Positions 4,769 through 48,592 of a stretch of DNA of 48,746 nt are shown here, piece after piece. Each line of letters begins with the position of its first letter. Positions within the stretch are counted from its first letter, which is position 1. The notes under the pieces are model-generated. The model saw nothing but the letters and a program-made list of their open reading frames with translations, was not told the DNA's origin and did no database searches. The stretch covers positions 1-48,746 of IMG/VR virus record IMGVR_UViG_3300036826_000051; one strand, written 5' to 3'. Source of the DNA: a virus. Made by a program: the position numbers and the translations under genes.

Positions 4769-4881
4769 GCGAGGAGGAGGAGATGTACCGCGATCTGTTC
4801 GACCGGATCGTCGGACGCGCGAAGCGGCGCGACCAGCTACGCCGGTTCCTTCACCCGGACAAAGACCGTCCCCTGGCCTGA
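4729..4881 (+). CDS. Small helical protein, 50 aa
   Basis: TTG start at 4729 with GGAGGGG upstream; TGA at 4879-4881. Residues AKQYPDADLDALSEEEEMY then DRIVGRAKRRDQLRR look like two amphipathic helices. Its 3' end overlaps the tail end of the convergent endolysin by 45 bp. Function unknown. See the preceding ORF for a possible joined product. Confidence 0.5.
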   Translation: MAKQYPDADLDALSEEEEMYRDLFDRIVGRAKRRDQLRRFLHPDKDRPLA

Positions 4882-5733
4882 GCGAGAGCGGTTGCGGCGC
4901 ATGACCTCGCCGCCATTCGAGTTGTTGTTCAGAGACGTGTTGCCTTCGATGGCATCGAAGTTCGTGTGCCCCGAAGTCCAACGCTCGAAGATGCCGATGT
5001 GGTCGTAGATCGTGTCCCACGACCAGTCGTAGACCACGAGGTCTCCGGGGATCGGGTCGTCGGTGGTGGCCAGCCCGTTGCGGCGATTCCTCGCATCATC
5101 GACCACATATGGGCAGTACGCATACCTCGACCCCTTGACGAAGGAGGGCGAATCGGTGCCGACATCCCCCGCACCGTACTCGTAGCACCAGGTGACGAAC
5201 ATCGCGCACCAGGGCTGGTAGTTCTGCCCGTACCAGGAGCCGTACTTGACGTTGTTCGACTCGGGCGGCGACTCCTTCACGCCTAGCTGGGACTTCGCGC
5301 GGGCGAGCGCCGCTGCCCTGACCGTCCCTCCTTGCTCGGGCGGCGGCTCGTGCCCGTGGAAGCGGTCGAAGGCGTCGTTGATCTGCCTGACCGCCGTGGC
5401 GTCCATCGCCGGTTCCCCGGCGTGGGGAAGTCCGTCAGGGATGCGGATGGAGCGAAGCAGATTGAACGTCTTTTCGCCAACCCACCCAGTCGCATCGAGA
5501 TGCGCCTGGCGCTGAACACCCGCGATCCCTGACTCACCTACATTCCCCCCGGCCTTCCCGTGGGAAAACCCGTTCGAGAAGGTGTCATCGAACTCGCCCC
5601 ACTCCCATCTTCCTGCGCGGGAGACGGTGCGCTTGTAGGCGAGCACGTCCGGGCCATCGACCGAGGGGTTCTTTCCGTGCTCGGAGGCGTCCGGGGGATA
5701 GACCGCTCGGGGGAAGCCCTTGACCTCGACCAT
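4837..5733 (-). CDS. Endolysin: peptidoglycan-binding and CHAP domains
   Basis: Cell-wall hydrolase for host lysis, 298 residues. Residues about 50-95 resemble a peptidoglycan-binding-type repeat (GIAGVQRQAHLDATGWVG). The CHAP amidase/endopeptidase covers about 140-298 with catalytic Cys176 (QPWCAMFVTWC) and His245 (YDHIGIFE), plus GDLVVYDW and AIEGNTS typical of the fold. ATG at 5733 is chosen for AGGAGG four bases upstream; longer frames upstream look non-coding. No signal peptide is visible, so release probably needs a holin. Confidence 0.9.
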   Translation of the reverse strand: MVEVKGFPRAVYPPDASEHGKNPSVDGPDVLAYKRTVSRAGRWEWGEFDDTFSNGFSHGKAGGNVGESGIAGVQRQAHLDATGWVGEKTFNLLRSIRIPDGLPHAGEPAMDATAVRQINDAFDRFHGHEPPPEQGGTVRAAALARAKSQLGVKESPPESNNVKYGSWYGQNYQPWCAMFVTWCYEYGAGDVGTDSPSFVKGSRYAYCPYVVDDARNRRNGLATTDDPIPGDLVVYDWSWDTIYDHIGIFERWTSGHTNFDAIEGNTSLNNNSNGGEVMRRNRSRSGQGTVFVRVKEPA

Positions 5734-5799
5734 CGGGCCTCCTGGGTAGCCCTGCTCGTACCAGGCACTCACGACCGAATCGTATGAAAGGATGCGGAC

Positions 5800-6597
5800 G
5801 TGGCAACGGAGCAGAGCCTCGGGCAGGAGGCGGTCGATCTCGCTCAGCAGACCTCGTACACCTGGGAGCAGTACCTCTCCCGGATCCGCAGCGACCCCGG
5901 CTACGCCTACAAGAACACGTCCTGGTTCAAGGCGGGCGGGAAGCTGGAGGAGGCGAAGCATCTCAGCCCCCCTCCGCAGCCGCAGCCGCCCAGTGGCGAC
6001 CTCTCCTCCGTGCGAGCGCGTATCTTCTTGGCGCAGTCGCCCTTGGACTGCTTGGCCGCGCCCTCCTGGATGGTTCCCGTCTGCACCGCTGACGCGGCGT
6101 ATGCGACCTGGTACACGCACGAGGTCATCGAGGAGTTGCGCCGTCACTTCGGCGCGGTCGAGTCCTGGTGCGACTGCCGCAACCCGACCCACTACGGAGC
6201 GGCGGTGGCGATGGCCGACCAGTTCGGCCTGGACGGAGCCTGGGGCCAGTGTGAGACGACCCAGGAGTTGAAGAACGGCTACGACGCGGGCGCTCGGCGC
6301 TTCATCGGCAACTGCGACCCGAACGTGATGGACGACACCTGGCTGAACAAGGTCAAGTCAGGCGAGATCCTGATGACCGTCGAGTTGTACCGCAACAAGA
6401 TGCCCTGGATGCTCCCGGACTGGCGGAACGCGAACGCCGGGATCGGGGGCAACTGCATCGCGTGTTACGCCTCCTCGACCGAGGGCGCGATCTACACGCC
6501 CGTCCAGGCGTACAAGGATCAGGGCTTGTACGTTCCTCAGCACGATTCGGTCTACGGCGTGGGACTGGCTCACGCGGACTGGCTCGCGCTCGCATAG
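5800..6597 (+). CDS. Hypothetical protein, possible alpha/beta barrel, 265 aa
   Basis: GTG start with AAAGGA upstream. Residues 1-55 form a helical domain followed by a Pro/Gln linker (PPPQPQPPSGD, about 57-67). The C-terminal 190 residues contain strands and helices such as ESWCDCRNPTHYGAAVAMAD, GAWGQCE and RRFIGNCDPN that resemble a TIM-barrel or glycoside-hydrolase-like layout, but I cannot place the family. Divergent from the endolysin and followed 11 bp later by a Pro-rich protein. Possibly a wall-acting or virion protein. Confidence 0.65.
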   Translation: MATEQSLGQEAVDLAQQTSYTWEQYLSRIRSDPGYAYKNTSWFKAGGKLEEAKHLSPPPQPQPPSGDLSSVRARIFLAQSPLDCLAAPSWMVPVCTADAAYATWYTHEVIEELRRHFGAVESWCDCRNPTHYGAAVAMADQFGLDGAWGQCETTQELKNGYDAGARRFIGNCDPNVMDDTWLNKVKSGEILMTVELYRNKMPWMLPDWRNANAGIGGNCIACYASSTEGAIYTPVQAYKDQGLYVPQHDSVYGVGLAHADWLALA

Positions 6598-11328: not shown

Positions 11329-11343
11329 CCCGACAGAGAGGAG
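11329..11343 (+). promoter_or_regulatory. Start-associated sequence copy 1
   Basis: CCCGACAGAGAGGAG, 4 bp before the ATG at 11348. A GCGGCCC/GGGGCCGC hairpin (about 11299-11316) lies upstream. The GAGAGGAG part serves as ribosome-binding site. Confidence 0.9.
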
Positions 11344-11703: not shown

Positions 11704-11718
11704 CCCGACAGAGAGGAA
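11704..11718 (+). promoter_or_regulatory. Start-associated sequence copy 3
   Basis: CCCGACAGAGAGGAA, preceded directly by the perfect hairpin CACCGCTGC-AAG-GCAGCGGTG (11682-11702). Start codon at 11723. Confidence 0.9.
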
Positions 11719-11722
11719 TCTC

Positions 11723-13051
11723 ATGCCTGATTCACTCGGCACGGTTGCTGAGGCAACCGTCGATCCAGGGGACGTTTGCGATCACTGTGGCAGCGTTGTC
11801 GGTAACGACAACCTGTACCACAACGACGAGCGTGGCTCAGTCTGTTCAGACTGCGACTTCCACACTTGCGATTGGTGCGGTGCGGAGCACCGCGACAGTG
11901 ACGATGCGTACTCCTGCTGCCGCCATGAGTGCCCGGACTGTGGATCCGTCCACAGGTACGAGGAGGATGCCGCAGCTTGCTGCGCTCCGCAGTACGAGTG
12001 TCCCGTCTGTGGTGCTATGCACCACGACGAGGACGATGCGGTCTACTGCTGCCGTTCCGTAGGAACGTCGTATCCCCGGCTCGCTGATCTCCCTCGGCCC
12101 TACCAGGTCTCCGTACCGGAGATCGAGGGTCGGCCCGGAAGGGTCTGCTCTATCGAGCAGGAGATCAACGACGGCGGGAGCGAGGCCACGCAGATGCTCT
12201 ACGACTTCGGCTTTGCCGATGCCAGAGAGCAGGCCAGCTACTCCTCCCAGGGTAGACCCGGAAGGGTCTCGGTCAAGTCCGATGCCTCCCTTTCGGGAGA
12301 GGACAGCGCCGAGATCGTCTACAGCCGTTTTCGGCTGTGGGAGCCTGCCTCGACTGCCGACCTGTCGGCAGCGTTCGGCAGGATGCGGCAGTTGGCCCGA
12401 GAAGCGAACGTAGTTCGGGTCAACAAGTCGGCCGGTACTCACATCCACATCTCGGCTACCGCCGAGAACGGACTGAGGCTCGGCCCCGTCCAGATGGCAG
12501 CGCTGCACGAGATCTTCGCCTACTGCGAAGATTTCCTGTACTCGCTCGCCGCTGCGGGCTGGGACGCTCACCGGGCTACGCCCGGTGGCGGCGGCTACTG
12601 CAAGCCGATCCCGAAGCTGTCCGAAGGACAGAAGGCCACTGGCTTCAGGGTGCAAGCCCTGATGCGGGGAGACCGATACTTCGGTCTCAACTTCCAGCGG
12701 CTCCTCGACGCTGCGGGGAACTGCTCCTGCGGAGCAGCCCGCTTCGGAGAGTGGCAGGAGTGCGAGTGCGGCTCATTCGACAGCGCTACCGTCGAATGGC
12801 GGCTGTTCAACGCCTCCACGAAGCCCGAGACGCTGCACGCATGGCTGATCCTCAGCCATGCGCTGACGGCGATGGCCTTCAGCCACACGGTCGGCAGCCT
12901 CCCGGCGAACGGCTACGGCACTCAGGACACTGAGGGCCGTAAGGCAGTCCAGACCTGGATCGAGCAGAACGCTCCGCTGACGGATGACGAAGTTCAAGTC
13001 ATCCGCTCGGCAGCGGCGAAGGCACCGGGTCTCGGCAAGCCGAGACGGTAG
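11723..13051 (+). CDS. Amidoligase with N-terminal zinc-ribbon repeats
   Basis: 442 residues. Residues 49-66, 70-87 and 93-110 are three tandem zinc-ribbon-like units of the form CxxCG..H....DA..CC, after another Cys-rich unit at 19-44. The rest matches the amidoligase_2 (glutamine-synthetase-like COOH-NH2 ligase) family: E145/E147 in CSIEQEIN, KSDASLSGEDSAEIVYS, GTHIHIS, and the basic/aromatic segment TVEWRLFNASTKPETLHAW. The family is known or predicted to form amide or peptide bonds using ATP. It is followed by a class II glutamine amidotransferase, the usual partner, which would supply ammonia. Substrate unknown. Synonymous sites are shaped into many hairpins. Confidence 0.85.
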   Translation: MPDSLGTVAEATVDPGDVCDHCGSVVGNDNLYHNDERGSVCSDCDFHTCDWCGAEHRDSDDAYSCCRHECPDCGSVHRYEEDAAACCAPQYECPVCGAMHHDEDDAVYCCRSVGTSYPRLADLPRPYQVSVPEIEGRPGRVCSIEQEINDGGSEATQMLYDFGFADAREQASYSSQGRPGRVSVKSDASLSGEDSAEIVYSRFRLWEPASTADLSAAFGRMRQLAREANVVRVNKSAGTHIHISATAENGLRLGPVQMAALHEIFAYCEDFLYSLAAAGWDAHRATPGGGGYCKPIPKLSEGQKATGFRVQALMRGDRYFGLNFQRLLDAAGNCSCGAARFGEWQECECGSFDSATVEWRLFNASTKPETLHAWLILSHALTAMAFSHTVGSLPANGYGTQDTEGRKAVQTWIEQNAPLTDDEVQVIRSAAAKAPGLGKPRR

Positions 13052-13098
13052 CTGCGGTGTCCAGCCCTGACGGGCTGGCACCCGGAGCCACCGGCTCC

Positions 13099-13121
13099 CC
13101 GATCCATGTTCCATGGATCGG
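13099..13121. repeat. Hairpin before the amidotransferase element
   Basis: CCGATCCATG-TTC-CATGGATCGG, perfect 10-bp arms, ending one base before start-associated copy 4. Confidence 0.85.
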
Positions 13122-13136
13122 CCCGACAGAGAGGAG
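13122..13136 (+). promoter_or_regulatory. Start-associated sequence copy 4
   Basis: CCCGACAGAGAGGAG, 6 bp before the ATG at 13143. Confidence 0.9.
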
Positions 13137-13142
13137 TACCAC

Positions 13143-14225
13143 ATGTGCGGAATCGCTGGCATCTACCTGCGAGACCCGGAGTTCCGGGTCGATGCGCTGG
13201 ACTCGATGCTGGACACGATGCTGGATGAGATCCAGCATCGCGGCGGCGATGCGACCGGCTTCGTTGCCTTGGGCAACGAGGGCGTTCTGGAGTGGCACCG
13301 TGCGGCCTGCGATGTCTCCGACTTCGTGAAGTATCGGCGGCCCGTCCCGAAGGGGACGAGGACGATCCTGGCCCACACTCGGTATGCAACGCAGGGTCTC
13401 CCTGCGTTCATCGAGAACAACCACCCGATCAAGCGTGGCCCGTTCTACGTCATCCACAACGGCCACGTCTCCAACGATCAGCAGCTTTTCAAGCTGGCTG
13501 ATCGCAAGCCCTTCGGCCAGGTCGATTCCGAAGCGATCCCGGCCCGTCTAGCTTCCCTCGGGAAGCTGACGGACGCCGAGGTCGTGATGGAGGAGATCGA
13601 GGGGGCAGCGGCGATAGCCGCTGTGGACGAGTCCAACCCCCGCGAACTCGTGCTCGCCAAGGGTCACTCCAGCCCCTTGTTCGTCCTGGTGACGAACAAG
13701 ATCGTGGTCTGGGGATCGACCCGAGACACGGTGGAAGTGGCCTACAAGAAGCATGTAGGCCGTCTGCCGAAGAAGCGGAAGATCGAGTCCCTGGAATCAG
13801 GGACGATGCTCCACTTCAGCGCCGAGGGCAAGCAGACTCGAACGAAGTTCGAGTGCTACGTCCCGGCGTACAAGACCTACACGCCTTCGGCGTGGAAGGA
13901 GACGACCGGCTTCACCTACTCGACGGAGGGCGCTGCTTGCAGCGTCCCCTCCGTGCCTCCGACCCGGCACCTGCCGACCATCGGCGGCTATCCCGAATGG
14001 GATAGCGAGGAGGAGGAGGGCACGTCGGCCAAGGCCGACGACGCTCTCCGCTGCGACATCTGCGACAGGGAGACCTCCCTGTCGGTCGCCTCCTACGAGA
14101 TGGACGAGGACGGATCCACTTGGATCCTCTGTCCTCGGTGCATGGAGGACATCTCCGAGGACTACACGGAGGAGTTCGAGCGGGTGAACGCGGCGATCCT
14201 CGCTGACAGCGAGGACGACCAGTGA
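13143..14225 (+). CDS. Class II glutamine amidotransferase
   Basis: 360 residues, Ntn-hydrolase fold. MCGIAGIY gives the catalytic Cys2 after Met removal; also HRGGDATGF, HTRYAT (substrate Arg), NNHPI and HNGHVSND, as in the GlmS/PurF glutaminase domain. It releases ammonia from glutamine. No sugar-isomerase or phosphoribosyltransferase domain follows. Instead there is an acidic linker and a C-terminal zinc ribbon (CDIC ... CPRC, about 300-340). It should pass ammonia or an amino donor to the amidoligase encoded just upstream. The next small membrane gene overlaps its stop. Confidence 0.9.
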   Translation: MCGIAGIYLRDPEFRVDALDSMLDTMLDEIQHRGGDATGFVALGNEGVLEWHRAACDVSDFVKYRRPVPKGTRTILAHTRYATQGLPAFIENNHPIKRGPFYVIHNGHVSNDQQLFKLADRKPFGQVDSEAIPARLASLGKLTDAEVVMEEIEGAAAIAAVDESNPRELVLAKGHSSPLFVLVTNKIVVWGSTRDTVEVAYKKHVGRLPKKRKIESLESGTMLHFSAEGKQTRTKFECYVPAYKTYTPSAWKETTGFTYSTEGAACSVPSVPPTRHLPTIGGYPEWDSEEEEGTSAKADDALRCDICDRETSLSVASYEMDEDGSTWILCPRCMEDISEDYTEEFERVNAAILADSEDDQ

Positions 14226-14353
14226 CCTGCTGGGGAATCGTCGCTCTCTGCCTCACCCTGTCCCCGCTGGCCGTAGCGATCATCGGATCGCTACGCCAGT
14301 GGCTCAGGGGAGGCCCGCGAGCCTGGGCAGGAAGCCGAGGCTGGCGCAGGTAG
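14222..14353 (+). CDS. Small membrane protein, 43 aa
   Basis: GTG at 14222 overlaps the amidotransferase stop (GTGA); TAG at 14351-14353. One hydrophobic span (CWGIVALCLTLSPLAVAIIG) then an Arg/Trp/Gly-rich tail. A 10-bp-arm hairpin (14272-14295) encodes the end of the span. Coupling to the amidotransferase hints that the amidoligase product may act at the membrane, but this is inference. Confidence 0.6.
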   Translation: MTCWGIVALCLTLSPLAVAIIGSLRQWLRGGPRAWAGSRGWRR

Positions 14354-14695: not shown

Positions 14696-14917
14696 ATGGA
14701 CGACTACTACGACCACGAGGAGTGGTCGGAGCGGGTCGAGATGTTCGCTGATCCCGGAGGGCGCTCTGCTCTCCGAGCAGCGTCGAGGAGCAATCCTCGG
14801 AACCTGCCCTGCCCGACCTGTGGTGAGGCGAACCGCCTCACCCCTGCGGACAGGGCGCGCGGCTACCAGTGTGACCGCTGCGCGGACATGGACGAGGGGC
14901 TGATCTTCCCGTGCTAG
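14696..14917 (+). CDS. Zinc-ribbon protein, 73 aa
   Basis: Acidic N-terminus (DDYYDHEEWSERVEMF), then a single zinc ribbon CPTCGEANRLTPADRARGYQ ending CDRC. Likely a small nucleic-acid or protein-binding adaptor. Its stop overlaps the GTG of the next gene. Confidence 0.7.
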   Translation: MDDYYDHEEWSERVEMFADPGGRSALRAASRSNPRNLPCPTCGEANRLTPADRARGYQCDRCADMDEGLIFPC

Positions 14918-16451: not shown

Positions 16452-16688
16452 TTGACCACCACCACCACCACCACCACCACCACCACCACCGATGCGAAGT
16501 TCGCAAAGGAGGTCAACGAGCGGCTGATCGACACGCACGAGTTGATGACCCTGCTCGGGCTGCGGAACAGGCAGACCGTCTGGGATCGCGTCCGCAGGGG
16601 CGAACTCCCCGAGCCGATCTTCGTTCGTGACAAGGCGATCTCGCTCTGGGATCGCAAGGCACTACCCGACAGAGAGGAGAGCAAGTGA
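16452..16688 (+). CDS. AlpA/MerR-like HTH protein with poly-Thr start
   Basis: 78 residues. TTG start preceded by AAAGGAGGTGA, a near-perfect Shine-Dalgarno. Residues 2-13 are twelve threonines from (ACC)12. Residues about 25-70 match a HTH_17/AlpA or excisionase-like winged helix (LIDTHELMTLLGLRNRQTVW, then DRVRRGELPEPIFVRDKAIS, LWDR). Ends in PDREESK, because the next start-associated element lies in its coding end. Probable transcription regulator or DNA-architectural protein. Confidence 0.75.
   Translation: MTTTTTTTTTTTTDAKFAKEVNERLIDTHELMTLLGLRNRQTVWDRVRRGELPEPIFVRDKAISLWDRKALPDREESK
16455..16490 (+). repeat. (ACC)12 microsatellite
   Basis: Twelve perfect ACC units directly after the start codon of the HTH gene, coding for polythreonine. 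In-frame slippage could vary the length. Confidence 0.95.
16665..16679 (+). promoter_or_regulatory. Start-associated sequence copy 9
   Basis: CCCGACAGAGAGGAG inside the 3' end of the HTH gene (coding PDREE), 5 bp before the GTG at 16685. Confidence 0.9.
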
Positions 16689-17755
16689 GGCACGACAGCC
16701 TCGACACGCTCATCGAGCGTGTACTGAAGCAGCACGACTCGAAGGAGGACATCCTCGCGGACACGCGGCGGATGTCCGTCGTCGTGGAAGCGGAGGAGGA
16801 GGGCCATCCGGTCACTCTCTCCGTGGACGACGAGGGTGGCGACACCCTCCACTTCGCCCCGTCCGATCACATGCTCGGGCAGATGGCGACCGACCTCGGC
16901 ATCCCGAAGCGCTACTGGGACAGGATGAGGGCCACCGCCCCCGACCTGTTCCAGAAGAACGCGCATCACTGGATGTACGAGGAGCCGAAGCGCAGGATGC
17001 TTCGGGCCTACAAGGTGGACGACGTGGTGCGGAACGGACGGGCCTGGCTCAGCGACCGCTACCGGCGTCTCGACAACATCGAGATCGCCAAGCGGCTGCT
17101 CCCGGAGTTCGACCGGCTCGACACCGAGGTCGCGTTCCACAACGCCTCGATCACGGACGAGCGCTTCTACCTCCGCGCCGTGTTCCCCCGGATGGAGAAG
17201 GAAGTCCGGGTCGGAGACACGGTTCAGTGGGGAGTCCAAATCCGCAACTCGGAAGTGGGAGCCGCCACGTTCGCCATCGAGTCCTTCGTCCTGCGCCTGG
17301 TCTGCATGAACGGCATGGTCGTGGCCAAGGTGCTGAACGCTCGGCACCTGGGCAAGCGCCTGGACGACATCCTCTCGGATGAAGCGGTCAAGGCCGACGA
17401 CCACGCCTTCTGGCTGGCCGCTCGGGACACGCTCCGAGCCAGCCTCGATGAGGCCGAGTTCGAGCGCACGGTCGAGACGCTGCGTGAGACCACGAGCGGG
17501 CTGAAGGTGCAGAACGCACCGCAGGCCACGAAGCGCCTCGCCAAGACGCTCTCCCTCTCCGACGAGGAGCAGGAGAGCGTGCTCACGAACCTGGTGCGTG
17601 AGGGCGACCTCTCGCGCTGGGGGATGCTGAACGCCGTCACCGCCACCGCCACCACGGTCACGAACTTCGACCGTGGCGTCGAGTTGGAGGAGGCGGGCTG
17701 GAGCATCGCCAACCTGTCCCGAAGGGACTGGGAACGGATCGCGGTCGCCGCTTAG
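16685..17755 (+). CDS. DUF932 phage/plasmid-like protein
   Basis: 356 residues of the DUF932 family (also known as phage/plasmid-like protein): SDHMLGQMATDLGIPKRYWD, RAYKVDDVVRNGRAWLSDRY, FYLRAVFP, then VQIRNSEVGAATFAIESFVL and RLVCMNGMVV, followed by a helical C-terminal third. Family members occur near plasmid and phage replication or recombination genes; exact biochemistry is not established. GTG start overlaps the HTH stop (GTGA), so it is co-translated with the regulator. Confidence 0.88.
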   Translation: MRHDSLDTLIERVLKQHDSKEDILADTRRMSVVVEAEEEGHPVTLSVDDEGGDTLHFAPSDHMLGQMATDLGIPKRYWDRMRATAPDLFQKNAHHWMYEEPKRRMLRAYKVDDVVRNGRAWLSDRYRRLDNIEIAKRLLPEFDRLDTEVAFHNASITDERFYLRAVFPRMEKEVRVGDTVQWGVQIRNSEVGAATFAIESFVLRLVCMNGMVVAKVLNARHLGKRLDDILSDEAVKADDHAFWLAARDTLRASLDEAEFERTVETLRETTSGLKVQNAPQATKRLAKTLSLSDEEQESVLTNLVREGDLSRWGMLNAVTATATTVTNFDRGVELEEAGWSIANLSRRDWERIAVAA

Positions 17756-20546: not shown

Positions 20547-20850
20547 CTACGTGATCTTCCTCGCGGGCGGGGTCGAGGGGATGAAGGACTACCCCGAGTT
20601 GACCGAGCACATCGGCCGCTACGTCGTCCACTACGACCCCTGGCAAGCCCCGAAGGGGGGACAGTGGCTCTGGACGACAGCCGACCGGGACAAGGCGTTC
20701 CACTTCAGGACGATGCAGGAGGCGCAGCAGTTCTGGTCAACGTCCATCGGCACGCGGATCGACGGCAAGCCCGACCGCCCACTGACCGCCTACCACGTCC
20801 AGATCCTCCGCGACGACCAGGATCCGATCCCAGGGGAGCACTCACTGTGA
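20539..20850 (+). CDS. Hypothetical protein, 103 aa
   Basis: GTG start within the preceding gene's end. Beta/alpha pattern: PSYVIFLAGGVEGMKDY, RYVVHYDPWQAPKGGQWLWT, then TMQEAQQFWSTSIGTR and TAYHVQILRDDQDP. No recognised family. Confidence 0.6.
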   Translation: MPSYVIFLAGGVEGMKDYPELTEHIGRYVVHYDPWQAPKGGQWLWTTADRDKAFHFRTMQEAQQFWSTSIGTRIDGKPDRPLTAYHVQILRDDQDPIPGEHSL

Positions 20851-20934
20851 GAGGGTCACTCCCTGGAGTGGATCCTCTCACCCGAGGACTGGCTGGTCGC
20901 GCAGGCGGCTGGCACCCAGCGGCGTGCGCTGGCG

Positions 20935-21342
20935 GTGAGAGACGGGCGACCGGCCTTCTACGGCTACCGCCAGCGCGACCCGCTCTGGGAGGACATCAAG
21001 AGTTGCGGCACCGAGTTGGCGGTCTCTCGCTTCCTCGGCCTTCCCTGGGTCGCCTGCGCGATCAGGCCCGAGAAGGTGGACGTGGGGGAGAACGTCCAGG
21101 TCAGGAGCACACGGGACGGGTTCGATCTCGTGCTCCACGACTCGGACAAGCAGCACCACCTGTACGTGCTCGTCTACGGGACAGGCCCGAAGTTCTGGTT
21201 CGCTGGCTGGGGGATGGTCTGGGAGTTGAAGGAGCAGGCCCGTCGAGACGGCGACCCCTACCACACCGGACGGCCCGCCTTCTGGGTGCCGCCCGAGAAG
21301 CTGCGGAAGGACTGGAAGCTGCTGAGAGACGTGGCCTGGTAA
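20935..21342 (+). CDS. Conserved phage-type protein, 135 aa or longer (start uncertain)
   Basis: The GTG at 20935 is the first standard start. The same frame is open back to 20851, and the extra residues (EWILSPEDWLVAQAAGTQRR) match how such proteins usually begin, before ALAVRDGRPAFYG and CGTELAVSRFLGLPWV. A CTG at 20863, 7 bp after GAGAGGG, is a likely real start and would give 159 residues. The remainder is a small alpha/beta domain (YVLVYGTGPKFWFAGWGMVW). Function unknown. A strong terminator follows directly. Confidence 0.7.
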   Translation: MRDGRPAFYGYRQRDPLWEDIKSCGTELAVSRFLGLPWVACAIRPEKVDVGENVQVRSTRDGFDLVLHDSDKQHHLYVLVYGTGPKFWFAGWGMVWELKEQARRDGDPYHTGRPAFWVPPEKLRKDWKLLRDVAW

Positions 21343-21373
21343 GCGAAAAGGCCGCAAAGAGCGGCCTTCTCGC
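21343..21373 (+). terminator. Intrinsic terminator-like hairpin
   Basis: GCGAAAAGGCCGC, loop AAAGA, GCGGCCTTCTCGC: 12 of 13 pairs, right after the stop at 21342. Likely ends the first early transcript. Confidence 0.75.
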
Positions 21374-21698
21374 TGGTTCCGCCCCCTTGATCGTCCAGAG
21401 CCAAGGGAGTAGGTTCTTTCACGCTGATGAAGAACCAAGGAGACGAAGCCTAGCGCGTAACGCCCGCGACAACCACCATGAGAGCCGAGTCGAGGCTCGA
21501 CTGGCCGGGGGCCGCGTCAAAGGGGATCCTGGCAAGCGTGGAGGCGAAGCCAGATGTGGCGAGAGCGGTGGGAGAGACCGCCGACTACCTGGTGGAACCG
21601 GAGGGGGCCAGTCGAGTAAGCGCCTGGGAACCGCCTCTAGACCTTGGACATGGTGGAGATCTGAACCACCTGGCATCCCCACAAGGGAGGAGCGAGAT
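21374..21698. other. Non-coding gap with inverted repeats
   Basis: 325 bp between terminator and next gene. It holds GGTTCTT and AAGAACC arms (about 21412-21438) and AGTCGAG-G-CTCGACT (about 21487-21501). A 77-residue ORF from 21478 has no ribosome-binding site. A weak TTGATC-N17-TAGGTT pair (about 21387-21415) could restart transcription. No tRNA fold was found. Confidence 0.5.
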
Positions 21699-22196
21699 AT
21701 GGCTGATCTGATCTTCGAGGCGGTCTGCACGGTCAGCGGGATCGACTGGCAGGAGGGCATGACCTCCGACCAGCGGGGCCGGGTGAACGCTGCCGTCAAG
21801 CAGCTACGCGACCTGTACGGCGAAGCGGAAGCGGCCGTCCCCATGATGATCCACGAGCGGGCTGCTGCCTGGGCGCTCGTCTACCCGGAGATCCCGATGA
21901 CGCCGCAGGTGCTCACCGGGAACTGGAGCACGATCCTGAACGCCGCCGAGCACAAGCAGGCACAGGTGAAGGAGGATGAGCGGGCGAAGCGCAGGGAGAC
22001 GAACGCTCACGCGAAGTCCGGGTGCGAGACCTGCGGCGACGATCACGTCGTCACGGTCGGCCAGGACGCGGACGGCTACGACCTGACCGCCCCGTGTCCA
22101 GACTGCAACCTGCACGCCAACGCAAGCTACTGGGTGGAGAGGAGACGAATCGAAGTGATGGACGCTGCCAAGACCAGGGAGATGCTGGGCCGATGA
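21699..22196 (+). CDS. Zinc-ribbon protein, 165 aa
   Basis: ATG at 21699 with GGGAGGAG upstream. The N-terminal 90 residues are helical (FEAVCTVSGIDWQEGMTSDQ ... WALVYPEIPMTPQVLTGNWS). A zinc ribbon CETCGDDHVVTVGQD ... CPDC covers about 106-130, and the tail is helical. Layout (helical domain plus zinc ribbon) resembles small phage replication or helicase-loading accessory proteins, but I do not recognise a specific family. First gene after the terminator. Confidence 0.7.
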   Translation: MADLIFEAVCTVSGIDWQEGMTSDQRGRVNAAVKQLRDLYGEAEAAVPMMIHERAAAWALVYPEIPMTPQVLTGNWSTILNAAEHKQAQVKEDERAKRRETNAHAKSGCETCGDDHVVTVGQDADGYDLTAPCPDCNLHANASYWVERRRIEVMDAAKTREMLGR

Positions 22197-46373: not shown

Positions 46374-46668
46374 CTATCTCATCCTCCTCGAATCCTTGCT
46401 CCTCCAGAAAGCGCTGGAGGGTGGCTTCGGCGTTCCTCGGTACGCCCTTGATCCAGTGGAGCGCTGCGATTGTCCCACGAATCGTGTCCAGCTTGCTCTG
46501 GTCTGCGCCGTCAGGGGCGAGCGCTACGTTCATCGCCGTGCGCCTCAGCCTCTCGATCTTGCGGTCGATCTCCTCCTCCATGAAGTGCCAGCCGGGGGCA
46601 CGCAGCAGCGAGGAGAGGAGATCGGCGCGGCGGTTCAGTTCCGCCTGGATCTGGGTGTTAGCCGCCAA
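46360..46668 (-). CDS. Hypothetical head protein, 102 aa
   Basis: TTG at 46668 overlapping the portal's 3' end by 11 bp. Helical sequence (AELNRRADLLSSLLRAPGWH, EEEIDRKIERLRRTAMNVAL) with an acidic tail. Placed between portal and scaffold; some phages carry a small assembly factor here. No family recognised. Confidence 0.65.
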   Translation of the reverse strand: MAANTQIQAELNRRADLLSSLLRAPGWHFMEEEIDRKIERLRRTAMNVALAPDGADQSKLDTIRGTIAALHWIKGVPRNAEATLQRFLEEQGFEEDEIDGGS

Positions 46669-48592
46669 GCTGCTGCGCGGCCTGCACCTGCGACTGGGCG
46701 AACTGGTCAGGCGAGAGGTTCAGCCCGTTGTTGCCGCCCATCGCGGTCGCTGCGTCCACGTTCGTCTGCCCCTGGGAGCCAGCGCCGGGAGGCTGGAGCG
46801 GGACGACGTTCCCCTGCCCCTGCGGGCTGCCGCCGTTCATCTGCGGCGGGGCCATCATCCCCTGCTGCGGCTGCTTGGCCGGGTCGAGGAAGAAGCGGGC
46901 GGTGTCGGTCACGCCCTGCGACTCCAGCACGCGCTTGACGACCTCCTGCATGTTCACCCCGGCGACCATGGCGACCGGGGCGACCATGTTCACGAACGCC
47001 ATCGCCTCCTGGATCCGCTCCTGCTTGATGACCGACTCGTCGGACACGTCGATGTTGACGTTGAACTCGCCCTGGAGGTCGAGTGGGTGCATGACCGCCA
47101 TCGCGTGCGAGCCGTCGTAGCCCATCTGCGGGATCACCCGCTCCTGGCGGATCATCTGGCCCATCATCCCCAGGAACAGACCGCCGACCTTCGCCCACGC
47201 CCACGAGTAGTGCTGCTTGCGGGCCTGGATCAACTTCTGGGCAATCGACGTGATGATCGACATGCCCGTCGCCGTTTTCTGGTCGATGCTCCCCGAGTTG
47301 ACGCCGCCTGCCATGGGTAGCCCGCCGAGCATGTTCTGGAGGTCGCCCTTCAGCAGCGCTTCCGCCTCCAGGGTGATCTGCGCCGCCGTCCCGTCGATCT
47401 GTAGCTGGCCGACCTGACCCGGATCCTCCACGATCCACTGTGCTCCCGGATACCACTCGAAGGCGTCGGGGTCGTCCACGTCCGAGCGGATCGTGGTGAT
47501 GACGTTGGTGAGCAGACGGAGGGCGTCGATGCGCTGGTTCTGGAGTGTCCAGAGGTACTCCTGGATCTGAGCCAGGCTCTCGATCACGCTCATCCCGACG
47601 AACTGGAAGGCGTCAGGCATCGAGGAGGTCATCACGAAGGGCTTGGCCTTGATCCTGAGCGGATCGAACTTCGATGCCAGCACAACGGATCGGCCCCCTA
47701 CCGTCACGACGTGCCCGTTCTCCCAGTATTCGAGGACTTCGATCAGATCCTTGTTCCGCTGCTGGTTCCAGAGCATCTGTTCGCGCTCGGTGAAGTCCAT
47801 CTCGGCCTGGTTGTTCCGGGCTTCCTTCAGCAGATCGACGTTGCTGTACAGGCCCGCCTGCTCCTTCGCCTTCAGCGACTCCCAGGTCTCCCAGCTTCGG
47901 TCGATCACCCAGGCGGCGGATGGGATGTCCTTCGCGCCCTCGGGCCAGAAGAAGTCGCGCATGTCCCGGACGATCATCGAGGGGCCGTCCCGGATCACGT
48001 CAGTCCGGTCTACCTCCTCGGTGCCGAGGTAGCGGTCGATGATCTGGCCCCAGTCGTCCGTGACCTCGAACGTCATCGGCACGAGCCGTGTCGTGTCACG
48101 GGTCTCATATGCCCAGACGACCTTGGCGAGGGAGGCTCCGACGATCAGGTCTTGCTGCATGAACGGTCGCTGCTTCATCCCGAAGTCGTCCTCATCCATC
48201 GCCCACTGGAGAGCGGCTGAGGCGATCTTCGACTTCTTCAGCCGGTCGTTCACGGCGTCGATGGCCTCACCGGGGAGCGGCTTCGGCGTGACCTCCCAGG
48301 TCGGCTTCGGATCCTGCATCGTCGCCAGCATCCCCTCGGCGGTCTGGAGCAGGTACGGCGTCGTCAGCTTCGAGCGCCAGGCCGGGGGCTTCGGCCCCTC
48401 CTTGCGCTGCTCCGCGATCCCCCGGTAGGCGCGGTAGCGCTTCTCCACCTTGTCCACCCAGGACTGGTGGAACTTCTCGGCCGACTCGACCGCCCGGAGA
48501 ACCTTGCTCAGTTCGTCGGCAGCAGGGAAGTCAGGACTGCCAAGCGGCTCGGTCGTCCTCTCCTTGCTGGTCGATCCGCGAGGGTCAGCCAC
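46658..48592 (-). CDS. Portal protein
   Basis: 644 residues with portal-type features: helical N-terminal region (FHQSWVDKVEKRYRAYRGIA), KLTTPYLLQTAEGMLATMQD, the beta wing (KVVWAYETRDTTRLVPMTFE, GHVVTVGGRSVVLASKFDPL), a long clip/stem region (DAFQFVGMSVIESLAQIQEY, LWTLQNQRIDALRLLTNVIT), and a Gln/Gly-rich flexible tail (about 560-644). GTG start at 48592 overlaps the stop of the junction-spanning gene. Forms the vertex ring where terminase docks. Confidence 0.9.
   Translation of the reverse strand: MADPRGSTSKERTTEPLGSPDFPAADELSKVLRAVESAEKFHQSWVDKVEKRYRAYRGIAEQRKEGPKPPAWRSKLTTPYLLQTAEGMLATMQDPKPTWEVTPKPLPGEAIDAVNDRLKKSKIASAALQWAMDEDDFGMKQRPFMQQDLIVGASLAKVVWAYETRDTTRLVPMTFEVTDDWGQIIDRYLGTEEVDRTDVIRDGPSMIVRDMRDFFWPEGAKDIPSAAWVIDRSWETWESLKAKEQAGLYSNVDLLKEARNNQAEMDFTEREQMLWNQQRNKDLIEVLEYWENGHVVTVGGRSVVLASKFDPLRIKAKPFVMTSSMPDAFQFVGMSVIESLAQIQEYLWTLQNQRIDALRLLTNVITTIRSDVDDPDAFEWYPGAQWIVEDPGQVGQLQIDGTAAQITLEAEALLKGDLQNMLGGLPMAGGVNSGSIDQKTATGMSIITSIAQKLIQARKQHYSWAWAKVGGLFLGMMGQMIRQERVIPQMGYDGSHAMAVMHPLDLQGEFNVNIDVSDESVIKQERIQEAMAFVNMVAPVAMVAGVNMQEVVKRVLESQGVTDTARFFLDPAKQPQQGMMAPPQMNGGSPQGQGNVVPLQPPGAGSQGQTNVDAATAMGGNNGLNLSPDQFAQSQVQAAQQLGG

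Follow-up and report, generated by a model that had tools for sequence, protein, structure and literature searches.

The locus studied here belongs to one virus record of IMG/VR, 48,746 bases long with 66.4% G+C, which is called the window below. Within it, a gene for a putative amidoligase is directly followed by one for a class II glutamine amidotransferase (GAT), which raises the question of what two such enzymes make together and which acceptor they act on. Amidoligase cassettes are widespread in phages, with a product that has so far only been predicted (a wall modification against superinfection), and the two-gene version described here, which has intact active sites and bears an evident signature of pairing, reduces the chemistry to its simplest testable form. 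If the wall is the target, a common set of non-structural genes is explained; if it is not, the substrate question is posed in a minimal system. We favour the reading, with a probability of roughly 0.45, that the pair is a glutamine-dependent amide-forming complex of an uncultured phage whose leading candidate acceptor is wall peptide. The coordinates of all features are listed in Table 1.

Table 1. Features of the amidoligase-GAT locus (positions in the window).
Feature	Position	Strand	Basis or remark
Start-associated 13-mer CCGACAGAGAGGA, ribosome-binding site of the amidoligase gene	11705..11717	+	5 nt from ATG; preceded by a hairpin
Putative GS-fold COOH-NH2 ligase (amidoligase, PF12224 superfamily), 442 aa	11723..13051	+	Pfam, invariant residues, AlphaFold model
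N-terminal zinc-finger array of the amidoligase (predicted), residues 19-110	11777..12052	+	Three C-x2-C-x12-CC repeats and a preceding CxxC pair; acidic
Internal zinc knuckle of the amidoligase (predicted), C334-x-C336-G-A...C347-x-C349	12722..12769	+	In the catalytic domain, directly before the last catalytic strand
Start-associated 13-mer CCGACAGAGAGGA before the GAT gene	13123..13135	+	Exact copy; preceded by a hairpin
Class II (Ntn) GAT, Cys2 nucleophile, 360 aa, no synthase domain	13143..14225	+	PF13522, invariant residues, model
C-terminal zinc ribbon of the GAT (predicted), C304, C307, C330, C333	14052..14141	+	Cysteine pattern; goes together with the knuckle of the amidoligase
43-aa ORF with one hydrophobic stretch	14222..14353	+	GTG overlaps the GAT stop; doubtful gene

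Identification of the two enzymes

The product of the first gene is most likely a GS-fold ATP-dependent carboxylate-amine ligase, as judged from its residues and predicted structure. In a Pfam search, it matched PF12224 (Amidoligase_2) with an E-value of 8e-5 and 23.1 bits at a curated cut-off of 22, a match to be read as marginal, since the 72% identical amidoligase of the related contig L003 scored slightly under this cut-off (21.5 bits). Alignment with 22-23 homologues, with identities down to 15%, identified ten invariant residues (E145, E147, D187, E197, G238, H240, H242, T356, E358 and R360), all of which except G238 and T356 make up the catalytic set of the GS fold (ExE, D/E pair, HxH and ExR) and which we take to fit the ExE, HxH and final ExR strands of glutamine synthetase. 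The AlphaFold model (mean pLDDT 84.7) was matched by Foldseek, with a probability of 1.0 and low TM-scores, to YbdK as the best solved structure (E 1.6e-5) and to glutamine synthetases (E 2.9e-4); the depupylase Dop was among the weak fold matches. The likeness to these ligases (1r8g, 8fbp and 4hpp) resides in the three named strands, whereas sequence identity is 9-13% and the phage protein has the zinc array and the knuckle in addition. A sequence search of the PDB returned nothing of use.

The second gene encodes a protein starting with MCGIAG that matched PF13522 (GATase_6) with an E-value of 2e-16. Six of its residues (C2, R80, H94, N106, G107 and D128) are invariant among 21-22 homologues and, with the exception of H94, comprise the N-terminal cysteine following the methionine and the glutamine-site residues; alignment with GlmS showed conservation of the residues equivalent to its C1, R73, N98, G99 and D123. 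The model (pLDDT 84.2) matched the E. coli GlmS glutaminase domain (1xff; E 1e-14, TMt 0.74), with which it shares the class II GAT fold. GlmS carries a fused isomerase domain, whereas the window GAT continues beyond residue ~240 with a linker modelled as disordered, the predicted zinc ribbon and a long helix, and the model shows no synthase domain. Standing alone in this way, the GAT probably needs a partner. The five longer GATs of related viruses (L012 and L015-L018) showed no convincing Pfam domain beyond the GAT domain. A second GAT candidate in the window (20547-22193; GAT profile E 0.0025) was dropped, having no Pfam support.

Pfam searches detected no second enzymatic domain in either protein, and both active sites were retained in the models and alignments. 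The two proteins are very likely an amidoligase-GAT pair with intact active sites, in agreement with an earlier note on this sequence that had described an amidoligase followed by a class II GAT, both free of sugar or purine domains.

Gene starts and the 43-aa ORF

Both genes begin 5-7 nt past an exact copy of the 13-mer CCGACAGAGAGGA, which supports both starts. The 13-mer occurs in 14 exact copies between positions 11330 and 25310 (0 expected in shuffles), all on the + strand and nearly always 2-8 nt ahead of a start codon; the L003 record contains four. Strong hairpins lie directly 5' of many copies in the 11.3-18.8 kb region, and the mean hairpin z over all sites is -3.3, compared with -1.3 in the control. 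It resembles an element tied to gene starts and accompanied by hairpins that would serve in processing or termination.

A small membrane protein overlapping the GAT stop had been proposed as the third member of the module. The 43-aa ORF exists and contains a hydrophobic stretch (best 19-residue Kyte-Doolittle mean 2.34), but it had no homologue in L003, L032, L033/L045, L008 or L010 (the L008 contig ends inside the GAT gene), and was therefore rejected as part of the conserved module. Its sole support as a gene is a copy of the 13-mer with two mismatches, located 6 nt upstream.

Conservation and co-inheritance of the pair

The window belongs to a clade of 12 viruses, together with L003, whose contig is collinear with the window (72% identity for the amidoligase, 77% for the GAT), and L032, L033, L008, L010, L011, L012 and L015-L018, which were added by profile searches. 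In all 12, the amidoligase gene directly precedes the GAT gene on the same strand, an arrangement far beyond chance, and in L012, L015, L017 and L018 the GAT gene starts immediately at, or overlaps, the stop of the ligase gene. More widely, 82 related viral GAT loci had sufficient sequence upstream for the comparison, and at 74 of them an amidoligase gene lies on the same strand within the preceding 6 kb; at another 13 loci the upstream stretch was too short to judge. Four of the eight exceptions (L019, L022, L023 and L024) carry a ligase of another GS-like family, PF14395, on the same contig. The mirror-tree distance correlation was r = 0.93 over 30 viruses and 0.91 within the clade, a value not reached in any of 2000 permutations, although shared phage ancestry alone can give rise to such a correlation. 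The co-occurrence implied by the module of the earlier note is therefore conserved for its two enzymes.

The clade forms one side of a branch in both protein trees (support 99/97 and 90/97). A ligase tree built after deletion of the internal knuckle again recovered it as a single group (99/97), which ruled out the concern that a clade marked by the knuckle was circular. A nucleotide search of phages with the window module gave no match, and neither did tblastn searches of the phage collection with the amidoligases of the window and L016; those of L011 and L015 gave weak matches only, to the amidoligases of other phages. No isolate belonging to the clade was found in the collection searched, and the novelty of the system lies in this co-inherited, zinc-marked two-gene form from a clade without an isolate there. 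In a genome-collection scan, bacterial MAGs gave three remote matches, of 22-25% identity, and none of the PADLOC defence models matched the pair.

The canonical amidoligase-GAT pair occurs in dozens of viral contigs of the sister group (L055-L123) alongside genes for a WhiB regulator, a lytic transglycosylase and a dNMP kinase, a gene content suggestive of actinobacterial hosts.

Zinc-type cysteine modules

The zinc ribbons that the earlier note had assigned to both proteins are present as cysteine patterns (fingers and a knuckle in the ligase, a ribbon in the GAT), from which zinc binding is predicted. The three fingers of the ligase (residues 49-66, 70-87 and 93-110) were modelled as beta-beta-alpha units with moderate confidence. 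The knuckle, which the earlier note did not single out, was invariant (CxCGA...CxC) in all ten clade members first aligned and also found in L032 and L033, but it was absent from the non-clade amidoligases compared; it is a hallmark of the 12-virus clade. It is accompanied by the GAT ribbon in 11 of the 12 viruses, the exception being L008, whose contig ends within the GAT gene, and a ribbon-like pattern was seen in 3 of 63 GATs whose ligase has no knuckle, although these counts are not independent events and the association can again stem from shared phage ancestry alone.

Relationship to the cassette of cultured phages

Phages including phiEco32, LUZ24, RIO-1 and PSA-HP1 carry a so-called peptidoglycan modification cassette, which encodes a gamma-glutamyl cyclotransferase (GGCT) and an ATP-grasp enzyme besides the GAT and either one or two GS-fold ligases (PMC5498523, PMC3890496); the earlier note did not link the pair to it. 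This cassette was hypothesised to generate unusual peptidoglycan linkages and thereby prevent superinfection (PMC5498523, PMC11945000, PMC10580990). The hypothesis is itself a prediction, and no assayed product of any cassette enzyme was found in the literature searched. The published proposal of peptidoglycan modification qualifies the earlier statement that no substrate is known.

As in cassettes of the LUZ24/RIO-1 type, the genes for a GS-fold ligase and a class II GAT sit side by side among the non-structural genes of the window, whereas it lacks the GGCT, the COOH-NH2 ligase type 2 and the ATP-grasp enzyme and has zinc-type modules in both proteins. Neither GGCT (PF06094) nor the second ligase COOH-NH2_lig (PF14395) gave a match in the window or the L003 record, both of which may be incomplete. 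For the ATP-grasp enzyme, a cassette-specific profile made from the loci was used, since PF08443, which also finds none in the window, misses most of the enzymes that this profile finds. The cassette-specific profile gave no match among the window ORFs, but recognised the enzyme in five of the other clade members and at four GAT loci besides. An ATP-grasp gene directly follows the GAT gene in the five clade members (L012 and L015-L018), whereas the closest relatives of the window showed no such gene in the vicinity of the pair, so that the two-gene form is probably a reduction, and the window pair a reduced form of the known amidoligase/GAT/GGCT/ATP-grasp cassette. With the GGCT, the second ligase and the ATP-grasp enzyme missing, its product may differ from that of the cassette. 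Two or three tandem amidoligase genes precede the GAT gene, and an ATP-grasp gene follows it, in L018 (3749-7997), L012 (3580-7998) and L015 (5263-7998).

By GAT identity (37.7% over 136 aa), the nearest named isolate found was the Arthrobacter phage Wheelbite. In its gp92-gp94 (GGCT, amidoligase and GAT), the amidoligase also immediately precedes the GAT, but the ligase is a canonical PF12224 member without knuckle or fingers, the GAT has no zinc ribbon, and a GGCT is present.

Proposed function and alternatives

In the proposed complex, the N-terminal cysteine of the GAT would release ammonia from glutamine, and the amidoligase would phosphorylate a carboxylate with ATP and then transfer the ammonia (or a small amine) to it. 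The zinc modules on both partners (knuckle and fingers of the ligase, ribbon of the GAT) would most likely join the subunits and/or shape the acceptor site. The acceptor may be a carboxylate of a host cell-wall peptide or its precursor, altered early in infection to the benefit of the phage, for example by a block to superinfection. We lean slightly towards a GAT that donates ammonia to the ligase, and the assignment of wall peptide as the acceptor is tentative. MurT-GatD and LtsA/AsnB are wall-amidating enzymes. Like the proposed pair, they place glutamine-derived ammonia on a wall-peptide carboxylate, whereas their ligase folds are unrelated and GatD is a class I GAT (for MurT-GatD, see PMC3267633).

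A more specific version is that of a phage-only, two-subunit, zinc-held amidating complex that depends on glutamine, in which knuckle and ribbon would have arisen jointly, dock the subunits and provide a new macromolecular acceptor; this we regard as conceivable but doubtful. We are aware of no GS-fold ligase for which joint action with a separate class II GAT has been demonstrated by biochemistry.

The main rival, which we consider unlikely, is a pair that makes and then hydrolyses a product, comparable to EgtA and EgtC in ergothioneine synthesis. The amidoligase would join a gamma-glutamyl group or another amino acid to an amine, and the GAT, as a gamma-glutamyl amide hydrolase, would remove or recycle it. 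A stand-alone class II GAT acting as a hydrolase would require no ammonia acceptor, and the cassette GAT has been listed as a degrading rather than an ammonia-donating enzyme (PMC5498523). The ranking of YbdK as the best solved match, the weak matches of the L011 amidoligase to glutamate-cysteine ligases and the addition of a GGCT in related cassettes point in the same direction. The window GAT also matched the NCBIfam EgtC model (TIGR03442; E 1e-5), but with 24.6 bits at a cut-off of 218.65, and the GlmS and PurF models outscored EgtC. Moreover, tight coupling and the presence of zinc modules on both proteins speak more for a complex than for enzymes that act one after the other, and no GGCT was found in the window.

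Quite unlikely is a role in protein tagging, in which the zinc fingers would bind a host or virion protein and the pair would amidate one of its side chains or attach a small amine there. Across the clade, the charge of the finger array ranges from -34 to +15 while the cysteine patterns are kept, as in a protein-binding or structural part; phage R2K ATP-grasp ligases are predicted to modify host proteins (PMC4431377), and Dop is among the weak fold matches. However, the clade showed no conserved linked gene for such a target, and YbdK and the glutamine synthetases, which rank best among the fold matches, act on small molecules.

Synthesis of a small metabolite apart from wall or protein, such as an amidated peptide or amine acting on host metabolism, appears improbable. 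Known GS-fold ligases mostly produce small amides. According to a citation in PMC10580990, the pair of mycobacteriophage Marvin was suggested to make secondary metabolites. Set against this, no further biosynthetic gene was recognised in the neighbourhood, and the reduction to two genes leaves scant room for a pathway.

Hypermodification of phage DNA is very improbable. In its favour, zinc fingers can bind nucleic acid and the array weakly resembles the DNA-binding fingers of CTCF and Aart (E above 0.03). Against it, the array is acidic in the window (net -19, pI 4.4) and its nearest relatives (pI 4.1-5.3 overall), no DNA-modification gene was seen beside the pair, and a thymidylate synthase/hydroxymethylase homologue was absent from all 12 records (the window and 11 relatives). 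Among the targets offered by the earlier note, DNA thus recedes and a host protein persists as a rival, while wall peptide leads by way of the published cassette hypothesis.

Genomic setting

The structural genes (terminase, portal, capsid and tail) are encoded on the - strand. The pair lies close to the start of the rightward (+ strand) non-structural block, together with genes for a DUF932 protein and a PDDEXK nuclease, a position which suggests that it acts early or mid infection.

The DUF932 protein (16685-17755; phrog_1362) recurs close to the pair, with strong conservation, in L003, L032 and L033, and a small zinc-ribbon protein (14696-14917; weakly YacG/TiaS-like) is conserved after the GAT in L032 and L033. 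The portal protein (46658-48592, - strand) has its nearest counterparts, at 20-25% identity, in podoviruses that infect filamentous cyanobacteria and in a small number of other phages, and the window phage is on this basis probably of the short-tailed type, without a close isolate. A protein with a C-terminal CHAP domain (4837-6192, - strand) is a probable lysin or tail-associated wall hydrolase. The ORF at 16452-16688 opens with about 12 threonine codons (ACC repeat, 16452-16500), of which L003 has a short run only, and this trinucleotide repeat could vary in length.
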